Shown: piece after piece, positions 13,262 through 23,485 of the stretch | Numbering within the stretch: the first letter of the stretch is position 1 | Layout: the number at the start of each line of letters is the position of its first letter | Origin: Acidimicrobiales bacterium | Lineage (GTDB): Bacteria; Actinomycetota; Acidimicrobiia; Acidimicrobiales; SHLQ01 | Length of the DNA stretch: 55,276 bases | Assembly: GCA_020628865.1 (NCBI GenBank) | Contig: JAHDEJ010000030.1 | Location: forward strand, 11,781-67,056 | Reading direction: 5' to 3' | Position numbers and translations under genes: made by a program | Notes under the pieces: generated by a model | Seen by the model: only the letters and a program-made list of their open reading frames with translations | Told to the model about the DNA's origin: nothing | Database searches by the model: none

Positions 13262-14929
13262 TCAGGCGACCAGCCAGGCGCAGTCGTAGGCGTCCAGTTC
13301 GATGCGGTCGACGCCGGATCGGCTGTGCAGCAGATCTCGCCAAGCGCCGGGGACGTCGGCGGTGATGGGCGTGTCGCCGAGGTTGCAGAGCACGGTGATC
13401 GACTCGCCGTCGGACCCCCGTCGAATGCAGAGGAGCGCGCCGTCGGCCTCCACCGACTGCGGCGCGTCCGGGTGGAAGGCCGGCTGTCGGCGGCGCTTCT
13501 GTGCGAGATCGAGCATCGATTGCATGAGGACCGCCTGCCAACCCTCGCCGGCACGGACGGGAACGTCGGTGAGCTCGACGGATGAGCGGTTGATGGACCG
13601 GCGAACGCCGTCGGCTTCGACGGCGGCATGGTCGTTCTGCGTACCGAGCAGGCTGTTGATGTAGATGGCCGGGACGCCGGCAAGCGAAAGCACGACCGTG
13701 TGCGCCAGCAGAACCCGGGCGGGCATGTGCGGATCGTCTGGCCCGCCGAAGAGGTCGGGCAACGAGATGTTCAGCTCGTAGGGGTACGGGACGCCGGCGC
13801 GATGGTAGGTTCCGTGGAGCCCGCCGCGGGCGTGGGCGAATTCGACGAGTTCGCCGATCTCATCGTCGGTGAGGAAGCCCTCGGCGGGGCGGACGCCGAT
13901 CCCATCGTGCGATGCGAGGAAGTTGAAGAGCGTCGTTCCGGCCGGCGGAGCGGGTGCGTTCGTCAACCAGTCGGCGAGACGTTCGGCGCGCCCCTGCAGC
14001 ACGCCGTCGACCAGCAGCGGAGGCAACGTGAAGTTGTAGATCAGGTGGGCTTCGTCCCCGTTGCCGAAGTACGACCGGTTCTCCGCGTCGGGAACGTTGG
14101 TCTCGGTCAGGATGGCCACGTGGGGCGCCCGGACGGCGAGAAGGGTTCGGAGCAGCTTGACGAACTCGTGGGTCTGCGGAAGATGCACGCTGGTGGTGCC
14201 TGCTTCCTTCCACAGGAAGGCAATCGCGTCGAGTCGAAGGAACCGGGCCCCATTGCGGATGTAGAGGTCGACGATCTGCAGCATCTCGCAGACGAGGTTG
14301 GGGTTGGACCAGTCGAGGTCGGCCTGGTCGTCACTGAAGGTCGTCCAGACGTGTTTCGGTCCGTCGGCGGTCTCGAACGGCGTCAGCAGCGGAAGCGATC
14401 GGGGACGGACGACGGCGGACAGGTCGTCGTCCGGGTCGGCGGTGAAGATGAAGTCGCGGCCGGGCTCCTCGTGCGCCAGGAACTGCTGGAACCAGTCGGA
14501 CTTCGTCGAGATGTGGTTGGCCACCAGGTCGAACATCAGGTCCACGTCTCGTTCGAGCCGGGCGACATCGGTCCAGCTGCCGAGCGCCGGGTCGACGGCG
14601 CGGTAGTCGATCACGGCGAAGCCGCGGTCGGAGCTGTACGGAGCGAAGGGGAGGATGTGGACGATGCCGAACGATTCGGCCAACCGGTCGTGGACGAGGG
14701 TGGCCAAGGCGGCAAGTGGGGTCCCGTTTCCCCGGATGCTGTCGCCGTAGGTGATGAGCGCGATGTCGCTCTCGGTCCAACGTTCGACGGGGGCGCCGAC
14801 GTCGTTTGGTCGGCCGATGCCGACGGAGGAGATGAGCGCATCGGACAGGCCGGGGTTCGTCGAACCCCAAATCGCTTCGACGTGCTGGTCCACCCGTTGG
14901 GCAAGGGCGCCCCGATCGGCTGCAGCCAT
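13262..14929 (-). CDS. GH13_18 sucrose phosphorylase-family enzyme (glucosylglycerate/sucrose phosphorylase-like)
   Basis: Alpha-amylase superfamily phosphorylase of 555 residues. Key motifs are YGDSIRGNGTPLAAL near 61-75, LPFAPYSSDRGFAVIDY, nucleophile Asp234 in RFLRLDAIAFLW, acid/base Glu276 in LTETNVP, and the transition-state pair His341-Asp342 in ASHDGIG. The subfamily includes sucrose, sucrose-6-phosphate and glucosylglycerate phosphorylases, all releasing glucose-1-phosphate. The gene converges on the operon with the GpgS-like enzyme (9 nt between stops), so glucosylglycerate phosphorylase is my preferred guess. Specificity cannot be fixed by eye. Confidence 0.8.
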   Translation of the reverse strand: MAAADRGALAQRVDQHVEAIWGSTNPGLSDALISSVGIGRPNDVGAPVERWTESDIALITYGDSIRGNGTPLAALATLVHDRLAESFGIVHILPFAPYSSDRGFAVIDYRAVDPALGSWTDVARLERDVDLMFDLVANHISTKSDWFQQFLAHEEPGRDFIFTADPDDDLSAVVRPRSLPLLTPFETADGPKHVWTTFSDDQADLDWSNPNLVCEMLQIVDLYIRNGARFLRLDAIAFLWKEAGTTSVHLPQTHEFVKLLRTLLAVRAPHVAILTETNVPDAENRSYFGNGDEAHLIYNFTLPPLLVDGVLQGRAERLADWLTNAPAPPAGTTLFNFLASHDGIGVRPAEGFLTDDEIGELVEFAHARGGLHGTYHRAGVPYPYELNISLPDLFGGPDDPHMPARVLLAHTVVLSLAGVPAIYINSLLGTQNDHAAVEADGVRRSINRSSVELTDVPVRAGEGWQAVLMQSMLDLAQKRRRQPAFHPDAPQSVEADGALLCIRRGSDGESITVLCNLGDTPITADVPGAWRDLLHSRSGVDRIELDAYDCAWLVA

Positions 14930-17950: not shown

Positions 17951-19087
17951 TCAGTTCACGACGATCGACCGGGCGAAGCGCTCTTCGCCGTCGTCGATGT
18001 CGATGAGGCGGTAGGTTCGGCCGCGGGTCTTTCGCGTGTCGGAGTCGATTTCGAGCGGGCCGGACGGGGCCGGGAACTCGACGTCGAGCAGCGCGTCGTT
18101 GAGCCGCTGGGAACCGACGGAGCCGGTGGCGTCGGCCGCGAGGGTCAGCGTCGCAACCGTGTCGAGCACGATGGCGTCGTCGGACGCCCCATCGCCGACG
18201 AACGCATCCACGAGTTGGTCCGGGTCGTCACCATGTCGGCTCGCGGTGGCCACGAGGTGCACGTCATCCAGCTCACCCCAGTCCTCGTCGTCGGCGAACC
18301 ACGGGACCACGATCGGCTGATCCAGCCCGCTGGCCCGGAGTTCGCTGATCAGCGGGCCGATCGTCCCGGGGAGGGCGCACACGGCGAGGACGTCGGCGTC
18401 GGTGGCCGGAGCGGAGACCTCGGTCGACACGTCGGCGACCGGATCGAGGATGCCGGTGAACGTCGTCGAGGAGATGATGGATCCACCGCGGCGGACGAAC
18501 GATTCCTCGAAGTCGCCACAGACCTCGGCGACGTCTCGAAGCAGGTCCGACGAGACCGTTGCCGCAGCGGAGAAGTCTTCTTGCCGGGCCCATGTCGACA
18601 TCGCCTCGTGCACGTGGTCGAGGTTGGCCAGGTCGGCGAAGAGCGGTGAGCGGGGGACGTCGGGGTGGGGGAGGGTGGCGCACCCGGTCACGGTCAGCAG
18701 GGAGCGTTCGGCCGACGCCTCGGCGATGAGCGGCACGGATGCGGTGTCACAGGTGGTCAACAGCACGGTCACGCCGAGCTCGGTCAGCAGGTCGAGGGCG
18801 CCGGGAATGTCGTCGGCTTCGTCGATCGTGGCGACCTCCAGTTGGAGATCGTGGCCGCCGTCGATGAGGGACGCGGCTTCTCGGACACGATCCAGCAGGC
18901 GGGTGTCCCGCTCGATGCTTGGGCTGTTCTGGTCGATGACCGCGCCGACCCGGAGCACGGGCTGACCGGCCCGGCCGGAGTCGACGGCGGATTCGACCGC
19001 GATGGGGTCGCCGATCGACTCGGGGTCTTCGGTGCAGGCGGTGAGTGCCACCGCGGCGGCAAGGACCGCCGCGGTGCGGCTCAGCAC
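17951..19087 (-). CDS. Periplasmic-binding-protein type 1 lipoprotein (branched-chain amino acid ABC-type)
   Basis: Predicted lipoprotein of 378 residues. From the GTG at 19087 the signal peptide runs MLSRTAAVLAAAVALTAC with a lipobox LTAC (Cys18). The mature part looks like a Leu/Ile/Val-binding-protein fold: LRVGAVIDQNSP, GALDLLTELGVTVLLTTCDTASVPLIAEASAERS (two adjoining segments), an inter-lobe VAEVCGDFEESFVRRGG, and SDDAIVLDTVATL. The frame continues upstream to 19222, but only the GTG start gives an export signal. No ABC permease or ATPase is nearby, so it may be a sensor or orphan receptor. Its start overlaps the upstream gene by 7 nt. Confidence 0.75.
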   Translation of the reverse strand: MLSRTAAVLAAAVALTACTEDPESIGDPIAVESAVDSGRAGQPVLRVGAVIDQNSPSIERDTRLLDRVREAASLIDGGHDLQLEVATIDEADDIPGALDLLTELGVTVLLTTCDTASVPLIAEASAERSLLTVTGCATLPHPDVPRSPLFADLANLDHVHEAMSTWARQEDFSAAATVSSDLLRDVAEVCGDFEESFVRRGGSIISSTTFTGILDPVADVSTEVSAPATDADVLAVCALPGTIGPLISELRASGLDQPIVVPWFADDEDWGELDDVHLVATASRHGDDPDQLVDAFVGDGASDDAIVLDTVATLTLAADATGSVGSQRLNDALLDVEFPAPSGPLEIDSDTRKTRGRTYRLIDIDDGEERFARSIVVN

Positions 19088-19446
19088 GTTGCGGGTCCCC
19101 CGTCGGCGGGTGCAGGCCGGTGGAGCACGGCGTCGGAGATCGTGATGCGGAGCGTGTCGTCGACGAGGGAGCCCGTGCCGTCGGCGATGAGGCTGAAGTC
19201 CTCGGCAGCGGCTGCCGGCCACAGGAGTGACAGGGGACCGTCGGCTTCGACGTGGGAGATGACGCCCCGGCCGAAGCCGGTGCAGATCGCCGTCGTTCCG
19301 GTCGGGGAGGTCTCGATCACCGTGTGCACGTGGTTGACCCGTGCCGATCCGTTGCGGCCGGCGTAGAGCAGGTACGGCCGGTCTCCCCGGGGGGTCGCCT
19401 CGGTGGCGAGATCGGCGGGGTCGACGCGGTGGCTCATGAGATCCAT
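19081..19446 (-). CDS. Small protein resembling pyridoxamine 5'-phosphate oxidase-like split barrels
   Basis: Protein of 121 residues from the ATG at 19446, or 118 from the ATG at 19437. Segments such as RPYLLYAGRNGSARVNHVHTV, broken here after VHTV, and later FSLIADGTGS followed by a C-terminal DAVLHRPAP resemble flavin/F420-binding split-barrel proteins common in actinobacteria. I cannot see a decisive cofactor motif. It precedes and overlaps the lipoprotein gene, so the two are likely cotranscribed. Function unassigned. Confidence 0.5.
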   Translation of the reverse strand: MDLMSHRVDPADLATEATPRGDRPYLLYAGRNGSARVNHVHTVIETSPTGTTAICTGFGRGVISHVEADGPLSLLWPAAAAEDFSLIADGTGSLVDDTLRITISDAVLHRPAPADGGPATC

Positions 19447-19519: not shown

Positions 19520-19660
19520 GTCTCACGTTCGGTGCCGTTTTCACGTTTCGTTCGGAATCATGCCAGAATTCCCACGCCTTGTGATCGGGAGAAATTCCCT
19601 GTTTGAAATTCGACCGATCACGGTGAAATACTGACGGAGAAATTCAACGCAGGCAGGGCG
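19520..19660. promoter_or_regulatory. AT-rich intergenic region with inverted repeat and repeated GAAATTC heptamers
   Basis: This stretch is clearly more AT-rich than its surroundings. It holds the inverted repeat GTGATCGG (19581-19588) / CCGATCAC (19614-19621). The heptamer GAAATTC occurs three times, at 19591, 19605 and 19639, two of them inside the inverted repeat. It separates the divergent split-barrel gene and the degenerate-HNH gene and probably contains their promoters and an operator. Confidence 0.4.
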
Positions 19661-20824
19661 TTGAAGGACTCTGAATGGCAATCGGCGGATCAGGTCAGTG
19701 AGCAACAGGTGAGATTTGAGGGCGAACTGCCCCGGGGCAACAACCGTAGAGGTGGCCCCGGCTGGTGGATGGACAACGCAGGGTGTTGGAGGGCTCCGGA
19801 GGAATGGCCGGAGGATGACCCTCCCCTTCCCGGATGGCGTCGCGACGCCTCGGGCCGCTGGTCGGCGCCGGACGGCGACGCCCCGGCGTCGGCACACGAA
19901 ACCCGTTGGGATCGCCACGAAGCCGCCACGACGTCGACGGCCGTTGCGGTCGTCGATCCACCCGATGCCCGCACGTCGCGTCGTTCGCGCCAGGCGCGGG
20001 CGGATCGCCGCGCCATGTTCCTGGTCGCCGGAGCGATCGGTGCTGCACTGCTTCTGCTCGCCGGAGCGCTCATTCTCATCACCCAGGCCGGGGCAAGCCC
20101 GGATCCCGATACCACCGAGGTGGCCGGCCCATCGGTGATCTACGCGGCCGAGACCGAGGCAGACTTCCTGGCGATGCGCGAAGAGGCCGCAGCGAAGCGT
20201 CCGGAGCAGGCCACCGCACGACTCGCTGCCCTGCAGCCGATCCCCGAATCTCCCGACCCGGCCCCCGTCTTCGACGCGGCCGAGTGGACGGCGCCCGACA
20301 CGGGCTGCCTGAGCCAGACCGAGCTGGTGCTCCTCGAGCGTTCCGCCATCGAGGTGCAATTCGCAGACACGCTCGACTGCGTGCCCGCGTCCGGCAGCTG
20401 GACCGATCCGTATCTCGGTCGCACGATCCGCCGGACCATCGACGCCGAGGTCGTGCTGCACGTCAGCGCCGAATTGGCGTGGGCGGCAGGCGGGTTCGCC
20501 TGGACGCCCGAGACGCGCACGGCCTACGTGACCGACACGGCGCACCCCGCCGTCTACCAGGTCGTCTCGGCCGGAGCCGGCCACAACCCTCGGGCGCAGG
20601 GTCCGGCCGCGTGGCGTCCCGCAAATGAGTCCACCTGGTGTGCCTACGCGGTGGACTGGGTCGATGTGCTGCATCGCTGGAACCTCGGCGTGAGCGAAGC
20701 CGACCGCGCGGCGCTGGGCGAGATGCTCGCCACCTGCGACTCGGCCACGAGCAACGGTGCGAACCCGCAGACCTCGAGCTTGCAGGAACCCGCACCGCCC
20801 GCCATCGCGCTGCGCACCGAGTAG
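19661..20824 (+). CDS. Membrane-anchored protein with degenerate HNH endonuclease-like (DUF1524/GmrSD-C type) extracytoplasmic domain
   Basis: Protein of 387 residues. Two tryptophan-rich DUF2510-like units (GPGWWMDNAGCW at 32-43, LPGWRRDASGRW at 56-67) precede a basic stretch and one transmembrane helix (about 119-142). The outer domain (about 210-360) follows the layout of secreted actinobacterial HNH proteins: GCLSQTELVLL, C...SGSWTDPYLG, AWTPETR, an AAWRPANESTWCAYA block and a final EMLATC, with Cys216, Cys240, Cys327 and Cys359. The expected Asp-His pair before AEAW reads V265-L266 (or L266-H267), and the N-R-x-K-G-D motif reads GHNPRAQG near 307-314. A nuclease is therefore unlikely. 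Start is uncertain: TTG 19661 or GTG 19709. Confidence 0.7.
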   Translation: MKDSEWQSADQVSEQQVRFEGELPRGNNRRGGPGWWMDNAGCWRAPEEWPEDDPPLPGWRRDASGRWSAPDGDAPASAHETRWDRHEAATTSTAVAVVDPPDARTSRRSRQARADRRAMFLVAGAIGAALLLLAGALILITQAGASPDPDTTEVAGPSVIYAAETEADFLAMREEAAAKRPEQATARLAALQPIPESPDPAPVFDAAEWTAPDTGCLSQTELVLLERSAIEVQFADTLDCVPASGSWTDPYLGRTIRRTIDAEVVLHVSAELAWAAGGFAWTPETRTAYVTDTAHPAVYQVVSAGAGHNPRAQGPAAWRPANESTWCAYAVDWVDVLHRWNLGVSEADRAALGEMLATCDSATSNGANPQTSSLQEPAPPAIALRTE

Positions 20825-20884: not shown

Positions 20885-23485
20885 ATGACCACCACCGAGC
20901 GTCGTCGACTTGCCGACGACCACCAAGCCTGGACCGCGTGGGGGCCGTATCTCGCCGAGCGGGCGTGGGGCACCGTCCGCGAGGACTACAGCGCCAACGG
21001 CGATGCGTGGAACGCCTTCCCCTACGAACACTCGCACCTCCGCGCCTATCGCTGGAATGAGGATGGGCTCGCCGGCTTCTCCGACCGGGACCAGCGGTGG
21101 TGTCTCTCGTTGTCGCTCTGGAACGGCCGGGACGACCACCTGAAGGAACGGCTCTACGGCCTCAACGGCCATCAGGGCAATCACGCAGAAGACCCGAAGG
21201 AGGAGTGGTGGTATCTCGATGCCACGCCCAGCCACTCCTGGGGGCGAATCGCCTATGCCTATCCCCAGCAGGCCTTTCCGTACGGCGCCCTCATCGCCGA
21301 GAACGCCCGCCGCGGCTACGCCGACCGCGAATACGAACTGCTCGACACCGGCATCTTCGACCACGGCTGGTGGGACGTGCAGGTCGATCATGCAAAGGCG
21401 GACGCCGACGATCTGTGCGTCCGCGTCACCGTCACGAACCGGGGACCCGAGCGCGACACCGTCCATTTGGTGCCGACCTTCTGGTTTCGTAATCGCTGGT
21501 CCTGGGGGCGCGAGACGGACCCGAAACCCGAGGTTCGTGCAGCCGCCGATCACGATGGGCTGATCGTCGAGGAAGTCCGGACGGGCACGCTGCACCTCAA
21601 CTGCAGCCCCGGTGCTGAACGGCTGTTCTGCGAGAACGAGACCAACCACGCCGCCCTCGATGGGTCGCAGCCCACCGGTCCGTATCCGAAGAACGGCATC
21701 GGCAGCCACATCGTCGACGGCGAGGCCACGGTCAACCCGGAGGGCCACGGAACGAAGAGCGGTCTCTGGTACCGGTTCGAACTCGATCCGGGCGAGTCGG
21801 CCGAGGTCCGTCTGCGACTGGCTCCGTCGGCGCAGCCCCTCGACGAGGACTTCGCCGAGACGATGGCTGCGCGTGAGCGCGACGCCGACGAGTTCTACGA
21901 CGACCTGCTGCCCGACGGGCTGGATCCGAGCCGCGCGCTGATGGCCCGCCGTGCCCTCGCCGGCATGCTCTTTTCGAAGCAGTGGTACCACTTCGATGTC
22001 GAACAGTGGCTGGAGGGTGACCCGGCGGCACCGGCACCTCCGCCGGCCTCCCGGTGGAACGGCCGGAACACCAACTGGCGCCATCTGAACAACGCCGACG
22101 TGATCCCGATGCCGGACACGTGGGAGTACCCCTGGTACGCCGCGTGGGACACCGCCTTCCACTGCCTGCCGCTGTCGCTGTTGGACCCGGCTTTTGCGAA
22201 GGCGCAGCTCCACCTGCTCGGCCGCGAGTGGTACCAGCATCCGAACGGCCAGCTCCCGGCGTACGAGTGGAGCTTCAGTGACGTCAACCCGCCGGTGCAC
22301 GCCTGGGCGGCGCTGCGGGTGTTCGAACTGGACGGCGGCTGGGACACGCACTTCCTCGAGCGGGTGCTGCACAAGCTGCTGTTGAACTTCACCTGGTGGG
22401 TGAACCGTCGGGACCTCGACGGCAACAACCTCTTCGACGGTGGCTTTCTCGGCCTGGACAACATCGGTCCGTTCAACCGGTCCGAAGGGCTCGGCAAGGG
22501 ACGGCTCGAACAGTCGGACGCCACAGCGTGGATGGCCATGTACAGCCTCGACCTCCTCGACATGTCCCTGCGCCTCACCTCGGAACGGCCGGCCTACGAG
22601 GACCTCGCCACGAAATTCGTGGAGCACTTCGCCTACATCTCCACGGCGATGCACGAGAGCGAACTGTGGCACGAGGACGACGGCTTCTACTACGACGTGC
22701 TCACCATCGGCGATCGTCGGATCCCGGTGGAGGTGCGGTCGATGGTGGGGCTCATCCCGATCTTCGCCACCCGCGTGCTGTCGTCGTCGCTGCGAGCACA
22801 GATGCCGAACTTCACCGAGCACCTCGAGTGGTTCCGGAACAACAAGACCGAGCTCAGCCGGCACATGCACGAGAACGACGCCGGGGACATCATGTTCTCC
22901 CTGGTCAGCCCGGAACGGCTGTGCCGACTCTTGGAACGCGTCCTGGACGAGGACGAGTTCCTCTCGCCTCACGGTGTGCGGGGGCTGTCCAAGGTTCATG
23001 CGGAGGAGCCGTACGTCCTCAATGTGGACGGAGCCGAGTTCTCTGTCGGCTACGAACCGGGCGAATCCATGACCGGCCTGTTCGGTGGCAATTCCAACTG
23101 GCGCGGTCCGGTGTGGTTCCCGCTCAATTATCTCCTCATCGAGTCGTTGCGCCGCTTCCACTTCTGGTCCGGCGGATCGCTCACCGTCGAGTTTCCCAAG
23201 GGCAGCGGCGAGCAGATTCCCATCGGCGCCGTGGCCGACCTCCTGGCCGAGCGCCTCACGACGCTGTTCGTTCCCGGGCCGGACGGGCTGCGCCCGGCGA
23301 TGCCGGAGCATCCGCTCTACGGCCCCGGGGGAGAATGGGAAGACCGGCTCCTGTTCCACGAGTACTTTGATGGCGATACCGGCCGGGGGTTGGGGGCATC
23401 CCACCAGACCGGCTGGACGGCGCTCGTTGCCTCGCTCGCAACGGGTTCCGCAGTTCCCTATGGGCGAAGGAGACACCGGCGATGA
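20885..23485 (+). CDS. Glycoside hydrolase family 63-type glucosidase
   Basis: Large cytoplasmic glycosidase-like protein of 866 residues without a signal peptide. The N-terminal segment (AWGPYLAERAWGTVREDYSAN, split here after YSAN) and DAWNAFPYEHSHLRAYRW are characteristic of a widespread bacterial GH63-like group. A C-terminal (alpha/alpha)6-type region contains PWYAAWDTAFHCLPL, NPPVHAWA and GGNSNWRGPVWFPLNYLLIE (ending there). GH63 enzymes hydrolyse alpha-glucosides. Some shorter relatives act on mannosyl- or glucosylglycerate, but this protein is about twice as long. It overlaps the next gene by 4 nt. Confidence 0.82.
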   Translation: MTTTERRRLADDHQAWTAWGPYLAERAWGTVREDYSANGDAWNAFPYEHSHLRAYRWNEDGLAGFSDRDQRWCLSLSLWNGRDDHLKERLYGLNGHQGNHAEDPKEEWWYLDATPSHSWGRIAYAYPQQAFPYGALIAENARRGYADREYELLDTGIFDHGWWDVQVDHAKADADDLCVRVTVTNRGPERDTVHLVPTFWFRNRWSWGRETDPKPEVRAAADHDGLIVEEVRTGTLHLNCSPGAERLFCENETNHAALDGSQPTGPYPKNGIGSHIVDGEATVNPEGHGTKSGLWYRFELDPGESAEVRLRLAPSAQPLDEDFAETMAARERDADEFYDDLLPDGLDPSRALMARRALAGMLFSKQWYHFDVEQWLEGDPAAPAPPPASRWNGRNTNWRHLNNADVIPMPDTWEYPWYAAWDTAFHCLPLSLLDPAFAKAQLHLLGREWYQHPNGQLPAYEWSFSDVNPPVHAWAALRVFELDGGWDTHFLERVLHKLLLNFTWWVNRRDLDGNNLFDGGFLGLDNIGPFNRSEGLGKGRLEQSDATAWMAMYSLDLLDMSLRLTSERPAYEDLATKFVEHFAYISTAMHESELWHEDDGFYYDVLTIGDRRIPVEVRSMVGLIPIFATRVLSSSLRAQMPNFTEHLEWFRNNKTELSRHMHENDAGDIMFSLVSPERLCRLLERVLDEDEFLSPHGVRGLSKVHAEEPYVLNVDGAEFSVGYEPGESMTGLFGGNSNWRGPVWFPLNYLLIESLRRFHFWSGGSLTVEFPKGSGEQIPIGAVADLLAERLTTLFVPGPDGLRPAMPEHPLYGPGGEWEDRLLFHEYFDGDTGRGLGASHQTGWTALVASLATGSAVPYGRRRHRR

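Follow-up and report, generated by a model that had tools for sequence, protein, structure and literature searches.

The locus described here raises the question of what a nuclease domain may do at the bacterial surface once its cutting residues are gone, and of whether such a domain is still maintained. The gene lies in a stretch of DNA of 55,276 nucleotides (the window), which is part of contig 7 of a 5.36 Mb genome in 113 contigs. The initial annotation had described it as encoding a secreted-HNH scaffold deprived of its catalytic residues and placed behind tryptophan-rich units and a membrane helix. The landmarks on which this proposal relied (SGSWTDPYLG, AWTPETR, WRPANESTWCAYA and four Cys) are all present in the open reading frame, and the strong preservation of the domain despite the lost cutting residues makes it probable that it has been recruited to a binding or signalling role in the envelope.

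Layout of the gene and of the protein

The open reading frame opens with a TTG at 19661 (387 amino acids), an in-frame alternative start. The start common to three orthologues (L004, L008 and L009) is the GTG at 19709 (MRFEGELP...), length-matched ATG starts being found in others. Position 19520, where the feature had been made to begin, is non-coding, and the feature is hence trimmed here. Starting from its N-terminus, the protein consists of the double Trp-rich unit, a linker that varies, a basic segment, a membrane helix and, outside the membrane, a further helix and the domain with four Cys, the corresponding features being the following:

19603-19632, + strand: candidate promoter-like site, TTGAAA-18-AATACT with a TG preceding the -10, located 77 nt upstream of the GTG start (one match in a consensus scan, 0.0 being expected)
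19709-20824, + strand: pseudo-nuclease coding sequence, 371 amino acids, GTG start, stop at 20822-20824
19754-19870, + strand: double Trp-rich cytoplasmic unit, residues 16-54, GPGWWMD..G.WR.PEEWPED.PPLPGW.RD..G.W..P
19979-20014, + strand: basic juxtamembrane stretch RRSRQARADRRA, residues 91-102, cytoplasmic side, positive-inside pattern in 9/9 aligned orthologues
20024-20080, + strand: single transmembrane helix, core residues 106-124, mean Kyte-Doolittle 2.64
20135-20224, + strand: extracytoplasmic helix (AAET...) that runs into the domain, residues 143-172, predicted with high confidence by AlphaFold2 (H6-30 of the model)
20270-20743, + strand: degenerate GmrSD_C/HNH domain, residues 188-345, with four Cys, from an alignment with about 100 relatives
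20453-20458, + strand: former catalytic D-H, now V249-L250, from the alignment to paralogues keeping IDH...N.AK
20579-20590, + strand: former metal-binding N..K helix, now the loop G291-H-N-P294, invariant in 9/9 orthologues

A Kyte-Doolittle scan of the protein gave no second transmembrane candidate above 1.2. The helix is flanked by arginines on its N-terminal side and by acids on its C-terminal side in all nine aligned orthologues, pointing to an N-in/C-out topology. Anchoring by one helix, as initially proposed, is thus borne out by hydropathy and by the charge pattern. Regarding the outer part, the AAET segment is kept by most orthologues and the four Cys of the ectodomain are residues 200, 224, 311 and 343.

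The N-terminal units had been called DUF2510-like, which overstated their likeness: compared with DUF2510 (PF10708; PGWY.DP.G...RWWDG..WT), the N-terminus gave no Pfam match and an hhalign probability of 12%, and the gene is not among the seven DUF2510 matches of its own genome. The first half of the unit resembles the GPGWWxASDGxWYPP tag, which is N-terminal on other proteins, some with membrane helices, and the whole appears to be a genus-specific double version of this tag. Across 14 proteins, 18 of its 52 columns are invariant, and among the genomes searched it occurs at full length only in this genus, with two proteins in the window's own genome. The second of them (locus L003:1330-2782, contig 113) is a short membrane protein with the double Trp-rich unit and without the outer domain, its counterparts being found at L013, L018, L020, L021, L023, L024 and L025; one short Trp-rich paralogue has a weak CwsA match (E 6e-4, below the cut-off).

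Descent of the outer domain and fate of its catalytic site

Taken directly, the window protein matches no Pfam family up to E 10, PF07510 (GmrSD_C/DUF1524) included, a PDB sequence search returned no solved relative, and the single NCBIfam match, to the SCO2400 family (NF049861), is sub-threshold (20.2 bits for a cut-off of 55). Its ancestry is read from its relatives. Indeed, the window domain is alignable end to end, all four Cys included, with the genus paralogues L015-L017 from other genomes, which read IDH...N.AK, and with the own-genome paralogue L002; the Pfam match of L016 to GmrSD_C is above the cut-off (E 3.5e-5), those of L002, L015 and L017 being below it. A 105-copy profile alignment also covers the domain and includes PF07510-matching members such as L016 and L093 (E 2.5e-11). 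Active relatives are 26-36% identical to the window domain, with which they share, besides the four Cys, the landmarks GxWxD, WCxYAxDW, KxRW and ML.TC. On these alignments, the ectodomain belongs by descent to the GmrSD_C/DUF1524 (HNH, ββα-Me) superfamily, in line with the actinobacterial HNH ancestry first put forward. It differs from the actinobacterial secreted HNH proteins of this superfamily in having all of D, H, N and K replaced, in the missing catalytic helix of its model, in having no Pfam match of its own, and in standing on a membrane helix behind a cytoplasmic unit, whereas those proteins are secreted or lipoproteins. Of note, L002 (L002:1162-2202, contig 81) reads INHMVPL...D.GKGD, its metal-site residues being apparently swapped (N replacing D ahead of the His, and D replacing N within the helix), possibly as a compensated active site.

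In GmrD, the residues D113, H114, N169 and N178 are expected for structure and catalysis, with the motif (I/L/V)(E/D)H (PMC4619093). The window protein is devoid of this motif of the ββα-Me core and of the Asn (and Lys) of the catalytic helix; when it is aligned to intact paralogues, D-H corresponds to V249-L250 and N..K to G291..P294, so that the claimed replacement of the catalytic residues holds. Both sites are lost in the nine full-length proteins of the genus and in a tenth copy broken by a contig end (L014), that is, in 10/10 genus genomes where the gene was found, no copy having been found in the eleventh, incomplete genome (G003). D/E-H stands at the catalytic columns of no genus copy, and no orthologue has the active motif. 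A loss shared by all ten genomes rules out chance or sequencing error. In the nine orthologues, the former D-H columns read VVTTTSERR and LLLPPSPSH and lie at the 88th and 75th percentiles of variability within the domain, while the place of the former catalytic helix is held by the invariant GHNP.

The AlphaFold2 model of residues 145-371 (15 sequences) reached a pLDDT of 92.3 and a pTM of 0.89, and an intact HNH triad, sought in it, is absent. Its strand 139-143 (model numbering) runs into a loop at the place where the model of the active sister L036 (pLDDT 83.4) has a helix (149-155), and the catalytic helix is thus predicted to be absent from the window domain; the remaining elements have the same order and type in both models. 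The L036 model matches Endonuclease I/Vvn with Z of 8.9-9.2 and many Cas9 HNH domains at lower Z. Its closest solved fold is that of these periplasmic nucleases (PDB 2vnd, 2g7e, 1ouo), Endonuclease I giving Z 9.2 and 3.2 Å over 129 residues at 12% identity. The window model itself misses them (Foldseek, VIA): its sole Foldseek match is a tRNA ligase (E 6.6), and among solved HNH structures only a PsCas9 row at Z 2.2 was obtained (VIA). Preservation of the whole fold hence rests on homology and on the order of the elements.

Among the 297 genomes searched across the order, 89 have the domain; the profile used in this survey and in that of the phylum was built around this family and finds its nearest relatives best. 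Nearly all the genomes of the analysis are MAGs, some 67-90% complete, which makes absences soft; every named record is an uncultured Acidimicrobiales MAG. In the other families of the order, D/E-H is conserved in about 75 copies that cover the site, N and K accompanying it in nearly every case. In a phylum sample, a few of whose 67 copies belong to the window's order, D-H, N and K are kept in 63 (an added reference not counted), three more having N-H, S-H or E-H, each with N and K. In the last copy, L253 (G425, outside the order), both sites are disrupted, with D-D and a disrupted helix, perhaps through a frameshift or a separate loss. Apart from it, fixed dead copies occur only in the window's family (those of the genus, L037, L054, L055, L060, L050, L052 and L061). 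A maximum-likelihood tree of 79 domains, computed with the catalytic columns removed, groups 16 of the 17 dead copies into a single clade within this family (bootstrap 89, SH-aLRT 82; branch not starred), L061 being on a very long branch outside it; a tree constrained to unite all 17 is not rejected (p-AU 0.32). The loss of catalysis in the window's family would most simply be one event. Moreover, most active copies of the order look secreted or lipoprotein-like, whereas a cytoplasmic N-terminus followed by a membrane helix is seen in many of those close to the dead clade (L002, L015-L017, L038, L039, L071). From the tree and from hydropathy, gene starts being uncertain, anchoring therefore seems older than the loss of catalysis.

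Maintenance of the domain and its possible roles

The pseudo-nuclease domain is under strong purifying selection and the protein is maintained for some role. Indeed, dN/dS is 0.054 for the outer domain and 0.076 for the whole protein between the window and G006, and 0.066 and 0.064, respectively, between G007 and G005, distant pairs near synonymous saturation being left out. With the confident model (pLDDT 92), these values agree with the initial view that a folded domain has been kept. Having lost its catalytic residues and having catalytic relatives, the protein can be classed as a putative pseudoenzyme, its lack of activity being predicted. That the gene is simply decaying or reflects a sequencing artefact has a close to negligible probability: the former D-H columns do vary freely, but the frames are intact in nine genomes, domain dN/dS is 0.05-0.07, many columns are invariant and the gene position is fixed. 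Decay and sequencing error are ruled out by the orthologues and by dN/dS.

Relatives carry other modules on the cytoplasmic side. L050 (L050:97-2250) combines in one protein FHA (E 4e-12), a membrane helix and a dead GmrSD_C domain, that is, a phosphothreonine reader and a dead outer nuclease; it has lost D-H and still has N and K. Bactofilin-like repeats, a membrane helix and a GmrSD_C domain are found in L037 (L037:7269-8726), L054, L055, L060, L061 and L038, the domain being dead except in L038; the bactofilin Pfam matches are sub-threshold (E 0.08-0.2, L037 and L061) and the other fusions were recognized by eye. The FHA protein and the bactofilin-like L037, L054, L055 and L060 share with the window protein the dead-domain clade and the transmembrane layout, and differ from it by their cytoplasmic module and by the lack of a GHNP loop, several having an excalibur-like C-terminus. 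L039 and L071, from the same order, have like the window protein a Trp-rich cytoplasmic N-terminus, one membrane helix and the same outer domain. Unlike in the window protein, D-H, N and K are intact in both, and L039 has a true DUF2510 by Pfam (E 4e-10) and an excalibur-like tail.

The reading we favour, with a probability of about one half, is that of a membrane-spanning surface protein whose outer pseudo-nuclease domain would bind without cutting and be connected through the membrane to exchangeable cytoplasmic modules, the whole acting as a receptor or a scaffold of the envelope. The topology pattern, homology, residue loss, selection and differing cytoplasmic modules are established by sequence analysis. 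A GmrSD_C-type HNH domain, found elsewhere in the order mostly on secreted or lipoprotein-like nucleases, is linked in this branch to cytoplasmic modules through a membrane helix. Within the branch, most simply in one event, the domain lost D-H and usually N and K too; the catalytic helix was lost as well in this genus, and purifying selection has since kept the dead domain. Its scaffold, probably held by two disulfides formed from the four Cys, would offer a binding platform outside the membrane, on which the invariant GHNP loop, located where the catalytic helix used to be, may contribute to a new surface for a ligand or partner; the membrane helix would couple this platform to the Trp-rich unit, as to the FHA or bactofilin-like domains in relatives. 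Only tentatively, and with some doubt, can this be extended to one conversion in one family, from a nuclease to a general-purpose surface receptor with FHA, bactofilin-like and Trp-rich readouts and, here, a new ligand site at GHNP. Among kinases, phosphatases and other enzymes, dead members turned regulators are well known. Our literature search returned no paper on dead HNH/DUF1524 domains that form a fixed clade under selection at the bacterial surface, and no experimental work on the window protein or its close relatives. If the reading is true, one order would hold a series from secreted nuclease to anchored nuclease to anchored dead domain with varied cytoplasmic modules, which would allow the loss of catalysis and the gain of a binding role to be tested in parallel.

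The DNA-uptake, adhesion and inhibitor roles suggested in the initial annotation are speculation. A surface receptor that holds extracellular DNA or RNA uncut, and so serves adhesion, the uptake of DNA or the scavenging of nucleic acids, would fit a nuclease ancestor, and the only other own-genome protein with the full Trp-rich unit adjoins a secreted SNase-LTD nuclease. However, the catalytic helix is gone in the model, none of the ten neighbouring genes examined is a competence gene, and the link to the SNase is part of a block that is conserved in general, which leaves this role unlikely. The ectodomain is also acidic (net -17 over 227 amino acids), a weak point since active relatives are acidic too, net charge being hence uninformative on DNA binding.

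It is quite unlikely that relocated residues have given the domain a new catalytic function, which would make it an altered enzyme instead of a pseudoenzyme. Migrated catalytic residues are noted in some apparent pseudoenzymes (PMC10211241), and G291-H-N-P294 is invariant at the place of the former catalytic helix, but it supplies one invariant His, the other nearby His (251) occurs in 3/9 aligned orthologues, and the dead copies of other genera are without GHNP. As for an inhibitor or decoy of active HNH/GmrSD_C nucleases, its own or those of competitors, acting by mimicry of a partner surface, dead paralogues as regulators are a known theme (PMC5106787), and active paralogues occur in 4/10 genus genomes (L015, L016, L017 and the own-genome L002). 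The six other genomes with the dead protein, which are incomplete MAGs, show no active copy, so that dead and active proteins are not an obligate pair and inhibition of the own HNH paralogue is weakened; moreover, dead and active genes are on different contigs and not adjacent, and the FHA and bactofilin-like fusions suit a scaffold better. We consider this role very unlikely.

Gene neighbourhood

The pseudo-nuclease gene belongs to a block (amylase, HrpB, flavodoxin, periplasmic binding protein, 121-amino-acid protein, pseudo-nuclease, MGH1-like glycosidase) kept genus-wide wherever the contig reaches, except for the amylase in one genome. From its stop to the start of the glycosidase gene there are about 0-90 nt, making co-transcription possible. 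In the family's other genera, HrpB was not found to have these neighbours. The neighbourhood being conserved across the genus as a whole block, it points to no pathway; a function from synteny was rejected, nothing linking the pathways of the block genes. An anti-phage defence role was also rejected, no PADLOC family having been found for the window protein.

Regarding the short Trp-rich membrane protein, its gene is directly downstream of that of the SNase-LTD nuclease at 8/8 genus loci found and is followed, where the contig reaches, by a NUDIX gene. This may hint at nucleic-acid processing, weakly, because genus neighbourhoods are conserved in blocks. In G007, G008 and G010, the searches found neither this short protein nor the SNase-LTD neighbour.

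Within the window, the alpha-amylase-like gene (13262-14929, - strand, recognized by eye) and the MGH1-like glycosidase gene (20888-23485, + strand, Pfam), both in the conserved block, possibly take part in the metabolism of glycosylglycerate or a similar solute. Finally, the periplasmic-binding-protein gene (17951-19141, - strand) is fast-evolving, with 30-39% identity across most of the genus compared with 66-73% for HrpB and the glycosidase.
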